DNA of 21,949 nucleotides from a virus: positions 1 through 21,949 of the IMG/VR virus record IMGVR_UViG_3300030329_005193, one strand, 5' to 3'. The notes beneath the pieces were generated by a model that ran no database searches, was not told where the DNA came from, and saw only the letters and a program-made list of their open reading frames with translations. A program made the translations under genes and the position numbers. The stretch's first letter is position 1. Each line of letters opens with the position of its first letter. Below are positions 11,598 to 21,892 of this stretch, piece by piece.

Positions 11598-12080
11598 CTA
11601 GCTGAATATATCGGCCAGGAGTTCATCTTCCTGGTCGTTTTGTATTCTGAAACTCAATCTGACTAACGCATCCGAAAATCTTCTCTTGACCTGCCGACCA
11701 TCTCTCAGTCCCATTATTTTCGCAATCTTTGAAAATGCCGGACCTCTATCCCTTTTAACCGCAGAATGCGAAACCATCCATACAAGTTTCCTGTCATCAC
11801 TATTCATTTTTTCAACACTAAGAAATAACATATTTTCATAACTGCTGATTTCGGCTGGTGAAGGTCTTGGTTCTTTAGGTTCAAATTCACTATATCCATA
11901 CCCCGACCACTCCTGAACGTATTCCGGCCAGCTATTCATTTTCTGTTTTCGTATGGCCCTGGGCAATTTTCTTTCAGTCACTGCTGCCATGAAAAAAAGA
12001 TCTCTAAGATTACCTTCGCCGGTTTTTGCCCGGTTAAAATCTTTGAGAGAGTTATCCACAATTTTTGTCAAGAAACTCAA
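11598..12080 (-). CDS. DUF6362-like phage protein with C-terminal HTH
   Basis: This 160-residue protein carries TERKLPRAIRKQKMNSWPEY, then PRPSPAEISSYENML and DRKLVWMVSHSAVK. It ends with a helix-turn-helix-like segment, FSKIAKIMGLRDGRQVKRRF. This order (R-LP-R, SWPE, PSP-EI, LVWM, then HTH) resembles the DUF6362 family of phage proteins, which looks like a sigma-factor region 4 or DNA-binding fold. The function is unknown. The longest start is TTG at 12080 with AAGGAAGG just upstream. A perfect DnaA box lies within its first ten codons. It sits beside the repeat-rich gap, so a replication or regulatory role is possible. Confidence 0.6.
   Translation of the reverse strand: MSFLTKIVDNSLKDFNRAKTGEGNLRDLFFMAAVTERKLPRAIRKQKMNSWPEYVQEWSGYGYSEFEPKEPRPSPAEISSYENMLFLSVEKMNSDDRKLVWMVSHSAVKRDRGPAFSKIAKIMGLRDGRQVKRRFSDALVRLSFRIQNDQEDELLADIFS
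11612..11641 (+). terminator. Rho-independent terminator after the 85-residue gene
   Basis: CGGCCAGGA at 11612-11620 pairs with TCCTGGTCG at 11629-11637 (one G-T pair) around an 8-nt loop, followed by TTTT. It lies 22 nt after the plus-strand stop and is embedded in the 3' coding end of the converging minus-strand gene. Confidence 0.65.
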
Positions 12081-12090
12081 AATACCTTCC

Positions 12091-12250
12091 TTAAGTACTT
12101 AGCTAAGCACTTAGCTAAGCTATTTTATTTTATTAGGAAGGTTAGTCTTTAGAACTTAACCAGGTGCTATTCTAAGTACTTAACCAGGTGCTATATTAAG
12201 CTCTATACTAAGTGCTAAACTAAGTACTTAGCTAAGTGCTAAGCTAAGCT
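12091..12250. repeat. Array A: degenerate TAAG/CTTAGCTAAG repeats
   Basis: Short palindromic units related to CTTAGCTAAG recur at 12098-12107, 12110-12119 and 12227-12236, with degenerate copies between them. TAAGTACTTAGCTAAG is repeated exactly at 12092-12107 and 12221-12236. ACTTAACCAGGTGCTAT is repeated exactly at 12154-12170 and 12178-12194, a 24-base period. Spacing of about 10-13 bases between cores would place bound proteins on one face of the helix. Confidence 0.8.
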
Positions 12251-12317
12251 GCGTCGAGGCTCCTGACGTCGAGGATACAGATACACCTCAAGATTTGTCA
12301 AGTATTTTTTTTTAGAC

Positions 12318-12326
12318 TTATCCACA
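12318..12326 (+). promoter_or_regulatory. DnaA box TTATCCACA
   Basis: Exact match to the strong DnaA box consensus. It ends one base before the first GTTGA unit of array B. A second exact copy lies at 12052-12060 inside the start of the DUF6362-like gene. No other exact copy was noticed in the window. Confidence 0.65.
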
Positions 12327-12385
12327 GTTGATAGTGTTGATAGTGTTGATACAGTTGAGAGTTGATAGTGTTGATACAGTTGAGA
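12327..12385. repeat. Array B: tandem GTTGATAGT/GTTGATACA units
   Basis: Seven GTTGA units start at 12327, 12336, 12345, 12354, 12361, 12370 and 12379, spaced 9, 9, 9, 7, 9 and 9. Two adjacent 25-base blocks (12336-12360 and 12361-12385) are identical. The array lies 11 nt after the stop of the winged-helix gene as read on the minus strand. Confidence 0.85.
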
Positions 12386-12396
12386 GTGTTCATGTA

Positions 12397-12705
12397 TCAG
12401 CCTATCCAGTAAGTCCATTTTGGTTCAAGCATCAGTGTTCTATCGCTCATCCCCTTCTCTATATAACCTAGCTGATGAAGTTTTCTCAATGCATTCGCAG
12501 CGGTCTGGGTTGGAATTGCGGTTTCAAAAGCAATATCACAAGCCTTTCGCTTTTTTCCATCTCGCAGCAATTTTATGATAGCGACACCATGCCTCGGCAT
12601 CCCGGCCTTTGGTTTCTTCTTGGGCAACTCCTGCCTTAGCCCCATCTCGATCTGGTCCTGCTCGAACAACATCATTCTTCTTCCAAGTTCGGACTCATCC
12701 ATCAT
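12397..12705 (-). CDS. Small winged-helix DNA-binding protein
   Basis: This 102-residue protein has a Lys-rich linker followed by a winged-helix-like domain: GMPRHGVAIIKLLRDGKKRK, then AFETAIPTQTAANALRKLHQ and LGYIEKGMSDRTLMLEP. The pattern (helix, recognition helix with TQTAANALRKL, then a beta hairpin wing) is that of ArsR/MarR-like folds. Its target is unknown. The ATG overlaps the methyltransferase stop (ATGA). The gene ends directly beside array B, so binding to that array, for autoregulation or at an origin, is an attractive but unproven idea. Confidence 0.6.
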   Translation of the reverse strand: MMDESELGRRMMLFEQDQIEMGLRQELPKKKPKAGMPRHGVAIIKLLRDGKKRKACDIAFETAIPTQTAANALRKLHQLGYIEKGMSDRTLMLEPKWTYWIG

Positions 12706-13790
12706 TCATCACCCGCCTCCAGCCGCCTGATAATCTGACCAATTCGCATGGCTATTTGCGGCACAATGGCGTTGCCTAAACCCTTTAAACGTTGCACTCT
12801 ATTAGGAACGCCTTGGCTTACTCTCGGGATGTCTCCAGGCTCGTCCACCCATCGGGATAACCCATCAGCCATTCCACAAACCGGGGGTTCAGGCTTCCAG
12901 ATGGAGCGTTTTGTCTTTGCTCCACTGCATAATCTAATCTGTCGTTCATTCTGCTTTTTCCGTCTCTTCGAATGATCGTTGGCCCTGACCCCTTGTAATC
13001 GCTTGCTGTCGGTGTCGGCCACATCTGCTTTGCAACCGCTACTCTTAGGCTGTTTTTTGTTGCTGCGTGATTTGTCTCCATCTCCCACTGTGTCACTTGC
13101 CCATGCTTCGCCTCTTGCGCTAATGGTGTCGGCCACAGCTTCACTGCTCTGTTTAGAGTAACTTGCGTGTGCTTTCCTGTTTTTGGGTTGTAAACTCTTT
13201 CGTTCTGTTTCGGTGCTTTGCCATTCTTGTTTGTTAAAGTTTCCAGAAACTCGCCTGTTCCAGCGTTGTTCGCTGTCGGTGTTGGCCACATTTCTTCCGA
13301 TAATCCAGAGTCGCATTCTTCTATGTGGGGCGTCGACGGATACAGCTCCAAGATGAAATGTCTGGACTGCGTAATTGGCTTTGTCTGCCAGGTCAGAAAG
13401 CACCTCGTCGAGGCCCATAGTGATGTGGCCAGAAACGTTTTCACAAACAATCCAATCTGGCCTGACTTGCTGAATAATGGAAAATATTTCCGGCCAGATA
13501 TGTCTGTCATCTTCAATGCCTCTGCGCTGCCCGGCTTGACTAAAGGGTTGGCAGGGATAACCACATGATAAGATTGATCGTCTGTCTCCGATTGCGTGAA
13601 TAAGTCCATCTGGGTCATTTGCTAACTCCTTTACGTCTTCTGCAATTGGCACATCAGGCCAATGCTTGGCTAATATTTTTCGGCTCCAGGGTTCTATATC
13701 ACAAAACAAAACAGGCTTGCTCAAACCAGCCCATTCAAAGCCCAGCGCGAAGCCGCCAATACCCGAACATAAATCAACATGCGCCATCAT
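12702..13790 (-). CDS. DNA (cytosine-5) methyltransferase
   Basis: This 362-residue protein methylates cytosine at C5 in a specific DNA sequence. Motif I (DLCSGIGG) is at residues 6-13, the catalytic PCQ of motif IV at 79-81, ENV of motif VI at 117-119 and the HRRMRLW motif VIII at 156-162. The C-terminal motif X (LGNAIVPQ) is near 338-345. The target-recognition region between VIII and X is unusually hydrophilic and carries repeated VANTDS/VADTDS. Exactly there, a second frame is open and carries WPTPTA motifs. No restriction enzyme was seen, so this is probably an orphan enzyme protecting phage DNA or altering expression. The ATG overlaps the stop of the 57-residue gene, and the stop overlaps the next ATG. 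Confidence 0.9.
   Translation of the reverse strand: MMAHVDLCSGIGGFALGFEWAGLSKPVLFCDIEPWSRKILAKHWPDVPIAEDVKELANDPDGLIHAIGDRRSILSCGYPCQPFSQAGQRRGIEDDRHIWPEIFSIIQQVRPDWIVCENVSGHITMGLDEVLSDLADKANYAVQTFHLGAVSVDAPHRRMRLWIIGRNVANTDSEQRWNRRVSGNFNKQEWQSTETERKSLQPKNRKAHASYSKQSSEAVADTISARGEAWASDTVGDGDKSRSNKKQPKSSGCKADVADTDSKRLQGVRANDHSKRRKKQNERQIRLCSGAKTKRSIWKPEPPVCGMADGLSRWVDEPGDIPRVSQGVPNRVQRLKGLGNAIVPQIAMRIGQIIRRLEAGDE
12818..13618 (-). CDS. Nested ORF inside the methyltransferase gene, +1 frame (possible overlapping gene)
   Basis: A 266-codon frame from ATG at 13618 lies entirely inside the methyltransferase gene, on the same strand but in the +1 frame. It reads like a real protein: SAEALKMTDISGRKYFPLF, then TSLWASTRCFLTWQTKPITQ, three WPTP motifs (MWPTPTANN, LWPTPLAQE, MWPTPTASDY) and LNPRFVEWLMGYPDGWTSLE at the end. 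From memory, proteins with this order of motifs (ST-C-LTWK, WPTPTA, LNP-WVEWLMG-P-GWT) occur in phages beside or annotated as C5 methyltransferases. Whether it is translated is unknown, and no dedicated ribosome site was evident. The alternative is a conserved shadow frame created by the repeats of the recognition region. Confidence 0.45.
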   Translation of the reverse strand: MTQMDLFTQSETDDQSYHVVIPANPLVKPGSAEALKMTDISGRKYFPLFSKSGQIGLFVKTFLATSLWASTRCFLTWQTKPITQSRHFILELYPSTPHIEECDSGLSEEMWPTPTANNAGTGEFLETLTNKNGKAPKQNERVYNPKTGKHTQVTLNRAVKLWPTPLAQEAKHGQVTQWEMETNHAATKNSLRVAVAKQMWPTPTASDYKGSGPTIIRRDGKSRMNDRLDYAVEQRQNAPSGSLNPRFVEWLMGYPDGWTSLETSRE

Positions 13791-14556: not shown

Positions 14557-14708
14557 CGCGGCCACCTCAGATACTCCAGGATATCATGGGCCAGATGAAT
14601 AAATTGAACCGGGTGAATTACCGCGAGCTCCTTTCCACCCTCACCAAAAATATGTAGCCCGGTGGGCCTCACAGCATAATAAAATTTCCACTCGTCGGAC
14701 GATTCCAT
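14553..14708 (-). CDS. Small protein of unknown function (51 residues)
   Basis: The preferred start is the ATG at 14708, which overlaps the nuclease stop by one base (TAATG), giving MESSDEWKFYYAVRPTGLHI and a C-terminus HLAHDILEYLRWPR. A longer frame from a TTG at 14753 would overlap the nuclease gene by 46 bases and is less likely. The protein is short, with no membrane segment or metal-binding motif. The stop overlaps the next start (GTGA). The function is unknown. Confidence 0.5.
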   Translation of the reverse strand: MESSDEWKFYYAVRPTGLHIFGEGGKELAVIHPVQFIHLAHDILEYLRWPR

Positions 14709-15091
14709 TATTGGATCTTCAACCTCACAAACTGTTTTAAAAAATTTAGACAATCATCCCAGCTTCTACAGAGGCTCCAGCCAAAACCCGCATCAACCAG
14801 AATATCCCGAATGAATTTCTGGTTATCACTGAGCCGCCCCTTTTTAGTTTTTATTTCAATGAAAAGGGCTTCCGCATTACCCGAAAGGGTTTCGGTCCTG
14901 GGACAAAAAATCTCAAGATCGGGCCAGCCGGGTTTTGTTCCGAGCGCAACCAGTTTTTTTTTGAAACTAATGTGCCGGACCCCCTCGTTCGGACTATGAT
15001 GAACCACACAGTTGCTCGGTAACGCGACATCCAGCATCAACCTTATCTGCTTATGAATCTGATCTTCATTCATTGTGTTTATAAAAATCAT
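14708..15091 (-). CDS. VRR-NUC domain nuclease
   Basis: This 127-residue protein is a stand-alone VRR-NUC domain, a PD-(D/E)xK-type nuclease fold that acts on branched DNA such as recombination or replication intermediates. Motifs are clear: GTKPGWPDLEIF at 51-62 (D58), FIEIKTKKGRLSDNQ at 77-91 (E79, K81, Q91) and HHSPNEG at 31-37. The length matches phage VRR-NUC proteins. A second ATG at 15073 (MNEDQIHKQI) is an equally possible start that would reduce overlap with the upstream Cro-like gene. It probably helps process phage DNA together with the recombination genes on the other strand. Confidence 0.85.
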   Translation of the reverse strand: MIFINTMNEDQIHKQIRLMLDVALPSNCVVHHSPNEGVRHISFKKKLVALGTKPGWPDLEIFCPRTETLSGNAEALFIEIKTKKGRLSDNQKFIRDILVDAGFGWSLCRSWDDCLNFLKQFVRLKIQ

Positions 15092-20588: not shown

Positions 20589-21047
20589 CTATTTAATCCT
20601 CATATACTTTGAAACCGCTCGATTCCCAAACCAGAAGGCAAGGATAGAACTAAAGAGTGCTTGAGTATTATCCGACCACAGTACCTCCACTCCGTCTTTC
20701 CAATCTCCACCACTCTCAATAACTTTCATCATTATTACTCCCTGGACGGCCAGGAAAAGAATAAAAAAAGAGTAAGTAAGGACAGGACGGACAGAGCCTC
20801 GTAAGGCGTTAATGAAACGACCTGAATCAAGAGACTGGTCATGTTGGTAGAGTCCTTTTGTTTCTTCGATATCTGCTTGTTTATCCAGTGCAGCTAACTT
20901 TAAATCACTGCGTCTTTCCATCATATCGTATTCAAGCTTCATCCGTTCAAGATGGTGCTTATGCTCCTGGCCTTTGCGAAAAAACGCAAGCACTTCAGGC
21001 AGAAAAGATGTACCAAAACCAATAAGAGTGCCTAATAGTGTAATCAT
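20589..21047 (-). CDS. Holin-like protein, three-TM GTA type
   Basis: Taken from the ATG at 21047, which overlaps the previous stop (ATGA) and has GGAG eight bases upstream, this is 152 residues; a GTG three codons earlier is less likely. A first hydrophobic helix (ITLLGTLIGFGTSFLPEVLA) is followed by a long charged helix (about 25-70). Two more hydrophobic segments follow, VRPVLTYSFFILFLAVQGVI and ALFSSILAFWFGNRA. The RP and WFGNR motifs and layout resemble the 3-TM holins of gene-transfer agents and phages. It sits next to the endolysin, so it probably forms the membrane lesion that lets the enzyme out. Confidence 0.75.
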   Translation of the reverse strand: MITLLGTLIGFGTSFLPEVLAFFRKGQEHKHHLERMKLEYDMMERRSDLKLAALDKQADIEETKGLYQHDQSLDSGRFINALRGSVRPVLTYSFFILFLAVQGVIMMKVIESGGDWKDGVEVLWSDNTQALFSSILAFWFGNRAVSKYMRIK

Positions 21048-21892
21048 GCTACACACTCCCCGTCGTTAGACTGACAAAGATACGACTTATTATCAAAGAT
21101 CCAATCACCTTGACGCTGCACAAAGTCTCCCAAATCTTTATAACTTCTAGTCTTGTGGAATTTAGCGCCAACCTTAGTTTCTAAGCTTGACCACCATTGC
21201 ATACGCTCTGGATGTTCACGCCAAACGGCAGCCAGAGTTGCTTCCGATTTAAGGAAACAACCATCACAGTTTCCCAAACCTTTTTCTACTCTCAAATCAA
21301 ATGGTTGGTCTTTCCAAAAGCTATGAATATTATGGAGCGATACAGTTGCATTGTTTAATGGATACCAGTTGCTCCATCTCTTATCTTTTGAAACGCGCAA
21401 TCTGTTATTTTCATCTGCGCGAATACCGACAGTGTTAATCCACTTTTTCCAACCTTGTCTGACTAAATACCTTTTTATCGTCAGGACTTTCATTTGTTGT
21501 GTGCAAAATCTTTGTGCTTGATTAGGCAAATATCTAAACTTTGTTACACTATCAATACACTGACTGAACGGCTCGCCATCACGACTAGCAGAGTTGTGGC
21601 TAACGGTTACAAACTTAGGCATTTGTTTTCTGTACTCTAGCCATGTGATAGGCACACGCCAACGCTCGCTGCACTCTTGTACAAAGTCTAATGTCTCTGG
21701 CATCTCACGCCCAGTATTTGCAAAGACAACCTTGCAACGCTCTGGCAAATCTCCGTTAGCCTCAAGTATTTTATGCAACATATATCCTGACGTTCTGCCA
21801 CCAGAAAAACTAATCAACACATTACCATCTGGTAGTGTGTATGCGTTACAGTTTTTTTCAAAACGTAAAAGACTCCCTGATAATGCAATCAT
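21044..21892 (-). CDS. PAPS-reductase-family protein
   Basis: This 282-residue protein carries the N-type ATP pyrophosphatase loop SFSGGRTSG (28-36) and VVFANTGREMPETLDFV. CTQQMKV follows in mid-protein, then GNCDGCFLKS and EHPERMQWW, with Cys residues at the very C-terminus. The family includes PAPS reductase, DndC and related enzymes that handle sulfur transfer or adenylation. Phage members are common, but their substrates are mostly unknown. It overlaps both neighbours by four bases, so it is locked into the lysis operon. A role in sulfur metabolism or DNA/RNA thiolation during infection is possible; neither is shown by the sequence. Confidence 0.75.
   Translation of the reverse strand: MIALSGSLLRFEKNCNAYTLPDGNVLISFSGGRTSGYMLHKILEANGDLPERCKVVFANTGREMPETLDFVQECSERWRVPITWLEYRKQMPKFVTVSHNSASRDGEPFSQCIDSVTKFRYLPNQAQRFCTQQMKVLTIKRYLVRQGWKKWINTVGIRADENNRLRVSKDKRWSNWYPLNNATVSLHNIHSFWKDQPFDLRVEKGLGNCDGCFLKSEATLAAVWREHPERMQWWSSLETKVGAKFHKTRSYKDLGDFVQRQGDWIFDNKSYLCQSNDGECVA

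Follow-up and report, generated by a model that had tools for sequence, protein, structure and literature searches.

An overlapping gene nested in a phage cytosine methyltransferase gene, probably encoding the second subunit of a split enzyme

Introduction

What is a second long reading frame doing inside a phage cytosine methyltransferase gene? The DNA analyzed here, which we refer to throughout as the window, is an IMG/VR virus record of 21,949 bases in which an open reading frame (ORF) scan identified terminase, head, tail, integrase, and endolysin genes. A preliminary description of this sequence drew attention to 266 codons without a stop in the +1 frame of the methyltransferase gene, and suggested either a true overlapping gene or an alternate recognition-domain frame used by frameshifting. 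Here, we examine which of these readings fits the locus and its relatives, and what the inner frame may contribute to the enzyme.

Results

A second open reading frame inside the methyltransferase gene

The 266-codon frame was confirmed and lies on the minus strand, which the preliminary description had not given (Table 1). We will refer to the outer ORF as alpha and to the nested ORF as beta. Family searches place alpha among the methyltransferases (Pfam PF00145, E 2.7e-32; PHROGs phrog_363, E 8.6e-65). Beta begins at offset 172 of the alpha ORF, spans 74% of alpha, and translates from its ATG at 13618 to its stop at 12818 with zero internal stops. The peptide motifs quoted for the inner frame are present, and the DNA repeat said to serve both frames does so in three copies, read as VADT or VANT in alpha and as WPTP in beta.

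Table 1. Features of the nested methyltransferase locus, in window coordinates.
Feature	Position	Strand	Details
Outer ORF (alpha), catalytic C5-cytosine methyltransferase subunit, motifs I-VIII and X	12702..13790	minus	362 aa
Nested ORF (beta) with WPTP modules and motif IX, probable second subunit	12818..13618	minus	266 aa, +1 frame
Putative Shine-Dalgarno sequence AAGGAG of beta, read K-E in alpha	13626..13631	minus	7 nt upstream of beta ATG
TAG stop in beta frame, two codons upstream of beta ATG	13622..13624	minus	from the sequence
Dual-coded repeat copy 1: beta WPTP, alpha VANT	13272..13291	minus	
Dual-coded repeat copy 2: beta WPTP, alpha VADT	13119..13138	minus	
Dual-coded repeat copy 3: beta WPTP, alpha VADT	13005..13024	minus	
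Motif IX in beta (LNPRFVEWLMGYPDGWT)	12842..12892	minus	near beta C-terminus; canonical motif-IX profile match
Alpha motif I (DLCSGIGGF)	13749..13775	minus	translation and alignment of alphas
Alpha motif IV (GYPCQPF)	13542..13562	minus	G77, P79, C80, Q81 invariant in alignment
Alpha motif VI (ENV)	13434..13442	minus	E117, N118 invariant
Alpha motif VIII (HRRMRLWIIG)	13296..13325	minus	H156, R158, R160 invariant
Alpha motif X (GLGNAIVPQIA), 3' of beta stop	12750..12782	minus	L338, G339, N340, P344 invariant; folded in AF2 model
Alpha residues 177-322, predicted disordered; expected site of target-recognition domain and motif IX	12825..13262	minus	AF2

Beta matches the PHROGs family phrog_1008 (E 2.2e-30), which is annotated as DNA methyltransferase; searches of Pfam and NCBIfam assigned it to no family, and a megablast of the gene against phages returned zero matches. 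The statement in the preliminary description that proteins of this pattern form separate database entries is borne out in part by the existence of the PHROGs family, but relatives are almost always nested. Among the 211 fetched loci that match beta, which come from phages and bacterial contigs and were collected partly via beta similarity, 208 carry it within alpha in the +1 frame. The same nesting was seen in additional bacterial genomes and plasmids. Of the 43 alpha-type loci that a search with alpha found, 41 carry a nested beta, and the two exceptions stop at a contig end. Canonical C5 genes carry motif IX in frame and, apart from 4 weak matches, no beta. The nested arrangement is conserved across hundreds of phages and prophages and represents a widespread phage variant.

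Several neighboring features were recorded as well. An ORF at 12397-12705 encodes 102 aa with an ArsR-like helix-turn-helix match (PF01022) and starts a few bases before the methyltransferase ORF ends. Between it and the ORF at 11598-12080 lie two short direct-repeat clusters (12080-12250 and 12317-12399), with TAAGTACTTAGC-like units spaced 12 nt and GTTGATAGT-like units spaced 9 nt; the clusters are iteron-like and possibly mark an origin or operator region. A VRR-NUC domain protein (PF08774) that also matches a phage Holliday-junction resolvase family is encoded at 14708-15091, and a phosphoadenosine phosphosulfate (PAPS) reductase domain protein (PF01507) at 21044-21892; Phage C72C1 likewise has a PAPS reductase near its methyltransferase. 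A scan of flanking ORFs recognized no restriction-enzyme gene, a result in keeping with an orphan phage methyltransferase.

Division of the methyltransferase motifs between the two frames

Alpha carries motifs I, IV (PCQ), VI (ENV), VIII (RxR), and X of the C5-cytosine DNA methyltransferases, consistent with membership in PF00145. Its profile aligns to M.HhaI 11-174, and its AlphaFold2 (AF2) model matches the HaeIII/HhaI catalytic domain of solved structures. That model is mostly confident over residues 1-170 and 330-360, and residues 177-322 fall below pLDDT 50 bar a few. Motif IX, which a single-chain C5 enzyme holds in the same chain, is absent from alpha: with a PSSM of canonical motif IX, 0 of 62 alphas rose above the 99% null. 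The middle of alpha, predicted to be disordered, is also less constrained than beta over the same stretch.

Motif IX is instead present in beta. The LNPRFVEWLMGYPDGWT segment was the best window for the canonical PSSM, in register, in 61 of 62 betas, and 38 of the 62 exceeded the 99% null. An HMM of canonical motif IX scores <5 bits on beta, and hhalign of beta against canonical enzymes is weak (prob 2.3, E 0.02); the assignment therefore rests on the short segment together with the single-chain relatives described below. Because the alpha profile partly overlaps the motif-IX DNA, the presence of beta with alpha-type genes and its motif-IX match are not fully independent. Neither the beta profile nor the motif-IX peptide gave a relevant match when searched against PDB sequences, AF2 modeling of beta alone was poor (pLDDT 56, pTM 0.23), and Foldseek found no fold match for that poor model.

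The number of WPTP modules ranges from 0 to 4 per beta in the set, and no sequence tie links the WPTP region to any known target-recognition domain. Since C5 enzymes need a recognition region between motifs VIII and IX, and this part of alpha is predicted to be disordered, we infer that beta most likely supplies target recognition via its WPTP region. The suggestion of an alternate recognition-domain frame survives in part: motif IX and probably the recognition region are in beta, but beta looks like a separate trans-acting subunit.

Rearranged relatives and the role of beta

Motif IX moves between chains among relatives of this locus. Natural REARRANGEMENTS include the gene L279 from a Candidatus Megaera plasmid and eight further contigs (L330, L336, L354, L359, L360, L365, L368, and L381), in all of which a single chain holds motifs I-VIII, a VEWLMGYP segment, and motif X. 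In this single-chain group, the final P of the segment and the GN of motif X lie 16 residues apart, the spacing of canonical enzymes such as L134 and L139. The +1 frame still codes for a PTP-repeat beta, which ends without motif IX. Within the middle of these genes, the alpha first position changes at 0.204 and the third at 0.089, the beta frame being the more constrained, and before and after the middle the alpha third position is free (0.315 and 0.283, respectively).

Other arrangements also occur. In L257 and L265, alpha has motifs I-VIII only, and the second chain consists of beta with motifs IX and X; in L062 and L079, motif IX is in the alpha frame and motif X in another frame. In L272, VEWLMG lies in the same frame as PCQ. 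Some rearranged forms could be assembly errors; the single-chain group recurs.

That beta persists under selection without motif IX in the single-chain group indicates a role beyond motif IX. Together with the lack of a Pfam family, this is what could be expected if beta were a real overlapping gene with its main job elsewhere, as an anti-restriction, regulatory, or DNA-binding protein. We regard such a separate function as unlikely, given that beta holds the very motif missing from alpha, is found only alongside this alpha, and exchanges motif IX with the other chain.

Start signals of beta

The start of beta is marked by conserved signals within alpha. Where alpha reads ELAND at the beta start, the Asn codon is AAT, which makes the ATG, in all 60 of 60 distinct genes; at other Asn codons of those same 60 genes, AAT and AAC are used 335 and 344 times. 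A Shine-Dalgarno hexamer (AAGGAG, AAGGAA, or AGGGAG) is found in 57 of the 60.

These signals bear on how the inner frame would be reached. Programmed frameshifting from alpha, producing a fusion with an alternative recognition region, would accommodate the relatives in which the beta ORF runs well upstream of its start, as well as the natural frame swaps. It is nevertheless very improbable: for the window and the relatives closest to it, a stop shortly precedes the beta ATG, and both the Shine-Dalgarno sequence and the ATG are conserved. No frameshift site came to notice in the course of the analysis. The frameshifting put forward in the preliminary description is also unnecessary, because a ribosome-binding site precedes beta itself and a TAG in the beta frame, two codons ahead of the ATG, would block entry from a frameshift farther upstream.

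Selection on both frames

To ask how often such a frame would arise from alpha, we recoded alpha synonymously. A +1 frame as long as beta appeared in 2 of 5000 random recodings under a codon-usage model and in 0 of 5000 codon shuffles, and the remaining same-strand frame of alpha is no longer than the recoding null leads one to expect. Across 24 relatives, similarity to the window beta scored 160-818, against means of 51-239 after recoding (z 7-17); no recoded null attained the observed score, and recoding added 3-11 stops on average. In one locus (L269, 93-951), a single in-frame stop, either an error or natural, splits alpha, and beta is open across the same stretch.

Substitutions were then counted in 28 disjoint pairs of relatives as simple, tree-free pairwise ratios of observed to expected changes, with duplicates and two canonical genes excluded. 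In the overlap, the ratio was 0.53 for changes synonymous in both frames, 0.14 for those altering beta only, 0.16 for those altering alpha only, and 0.09 for those altering both. The corresponding classes in the flanks gave 0.35, 0.33, 0.056, and 0.051, the pattern of a single coding frame. Along the gene, the log2 ratio of third- to first-position change in alpha was 1.1-2.0 near the 5' end, fell to 0.3-0.4 ahead of motif VIII, was about zero or below past motif VIII, and stood at 1.7 at motif X, so that the more constrained frame switches near motif VIII. Taken together, these rates point to purifying selection on both frames, with the beta frame the stronger past motif VIII. Neither of the observations that would have spoken against a nested gene, frequent stops in this frame among homologues or outer synonymous variation that freely changes beta, occurred.

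That beta is a by-product of a conserved alpha, whose composition and VADT repeats prevent stops in the +1 frame and make that frame similar among relatives, would explain why conserved stretches of beta and alpha coincide and why WPTP is a shifted reading of VADT, but this idea retains next to no credibility and is ruled out as far as sequence goes, as synonymous recoding of alpha abolishes both the frame and the beta similarity, changes silent in alpha that alter beta are held back about fourfold in the overlap only, and the beta ATG and Shine-Dalgarno sequence are maintained through codon choice in alpha. The recoding nulls, the internal start with its Shine-Dalgarno sequence, the conserved nesting, and the two-frame selection argue for a genuine gene overlapping alpha, the first of the two readings originally offered.

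Annotation of the locus in deposited genomes

Ten deposited records were compared by frame: 1 lists both frames, 8 the outer only, and 1 the inner only. Both frames are given for Paenibacillus phage Shelly, in which beta is named 'g55 internal gene'. The outer frame only is listed for Phage vB_PlaS-1/A, Phage C72C1, Acinetobacter phage ABMM1, and Lacticaseibacillus phage R23.9, and for the Citrobacter, Enterobacter, Paenibacillus polymyxa, and Megaera plasmids, whose tables are by their nature incomplete. The sole methyltransferase CDS listed for Escherichia phage EcoPhCCP1 is the beta frame (1195-1986), and the alpha ORF (1086-2027, in the other frame) is absent from the table. Many Paenibacillus matches display two features in the match listing. 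A literature search, with most subscription papers beyond its reach, found no paper describing this phage family. A two-subunit C5 enzyme is already known in M.EcoHK31I; the widespread phage form is commonly annotated as one gene.

Discussion

Our analysis makes it highly probable that this locus encodes a split two-subunit C5-cytosine DNA methyltransferase, with alpha as the catalytic chain and beta providing motif IX and probably target recognition. In such an enzyme, alpha would form the S-adenosylmethionine-binding and catalytic domain (motifs I-VIII), closed by motif X, and its middle would be a poorly structured linker. Beta would be translated by independent internal initiation at its own Shine-Dalgarno sequence and ATG in the +1 frame. 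It would contribute motif IX and complete the small domain, recognizing the target most likely through the region of WPTP modules. Joined in a single active enzyme, alpha and beta would methylate the DNA of the phage itself. Phage methyltransferases can protect against host restriction, and this is presumably the role here.

A more tentative extension concerns the recognition function itself. Target recognition may be encoded in the alternative frame by WPTP modules that form a modular array acting in trans, which we consider possible, if somewhat doubtful. The gene could then be a mutual overprint, in which an old catalytic frame dominates before motif VIII and an old recognition and motif-IX frame (+1) after it, a history that we put at a little under even chances. 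If true, phages could alter specificity by gain or loss of dual-coded modules.

The proposed two-subunit enzyme would have practical consequences. For hundreds of phage and prophage genes called 'DNA methyltransferase', the annotation may capture only half of what is encoded; if so, cloning the outer gene alone, or predicting specificity from alpha alone, would fail. These loci also make up a large natural collection of two-frame genes. Its members show a dominant frame that switches from one part of the gene to another and a catalytic motif that has passed from chain to chain, which makes the collection useful for studying the origin of overlapping genes and split enzymes.

How does this locus compare with known systems? 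Single-chain enzymes such as M.HhaI and M.HaeIII have a catalytic domain like that of alpha, but unlike alpha they carry the target-recognition domain (TRD) and motif IX in the same chain. A homing-endonuclease insertion in a phage methylase gene likewise hides a second protein in another frame. That case is a mobile insertion, whereas beta has no HNH family match, shares its DNA with catalytic motifs, and occurs in almost every relative of the alpha type.

By its division of motifs, the closest precedent appears to be M.EcoHK31I (YGGCCR), a two-polypeptide C5 methyltransferase. The probable small subunit of the window locus is encoded inside the large-subunit gene in another frame, and the same is said of M.EcoHK31I, whose small subunit was reportedly found by Lee, Kam and Shaw in 1995 to be translated from another frame inside the large-subunit gene. 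The large subunit of M.EcoHK31I carries motifs I-VIII and X and the small subunit motif IX only (PMC3404938), the division seen between alpha and beta in the window. Unlike that small subunit, beta has 266 aa, including an extended N-terminal part and WPTP modules. For M.EcoHK31I, the TRD has been predicted to lie in the large subunit (PMC3404938), whereas the middle of alpha is predicted to be disordered. M.AquI (CYCGRG) is a two-subunit C5 enzyme split differently, with motifs I-VIII in alpha and IX-X in beta (PMC3404938), a division shared by L257 and L265 only. The window locus differs from it: motif X stays in alpha, and beta, which is nested, has an N-terminal extension of its own.
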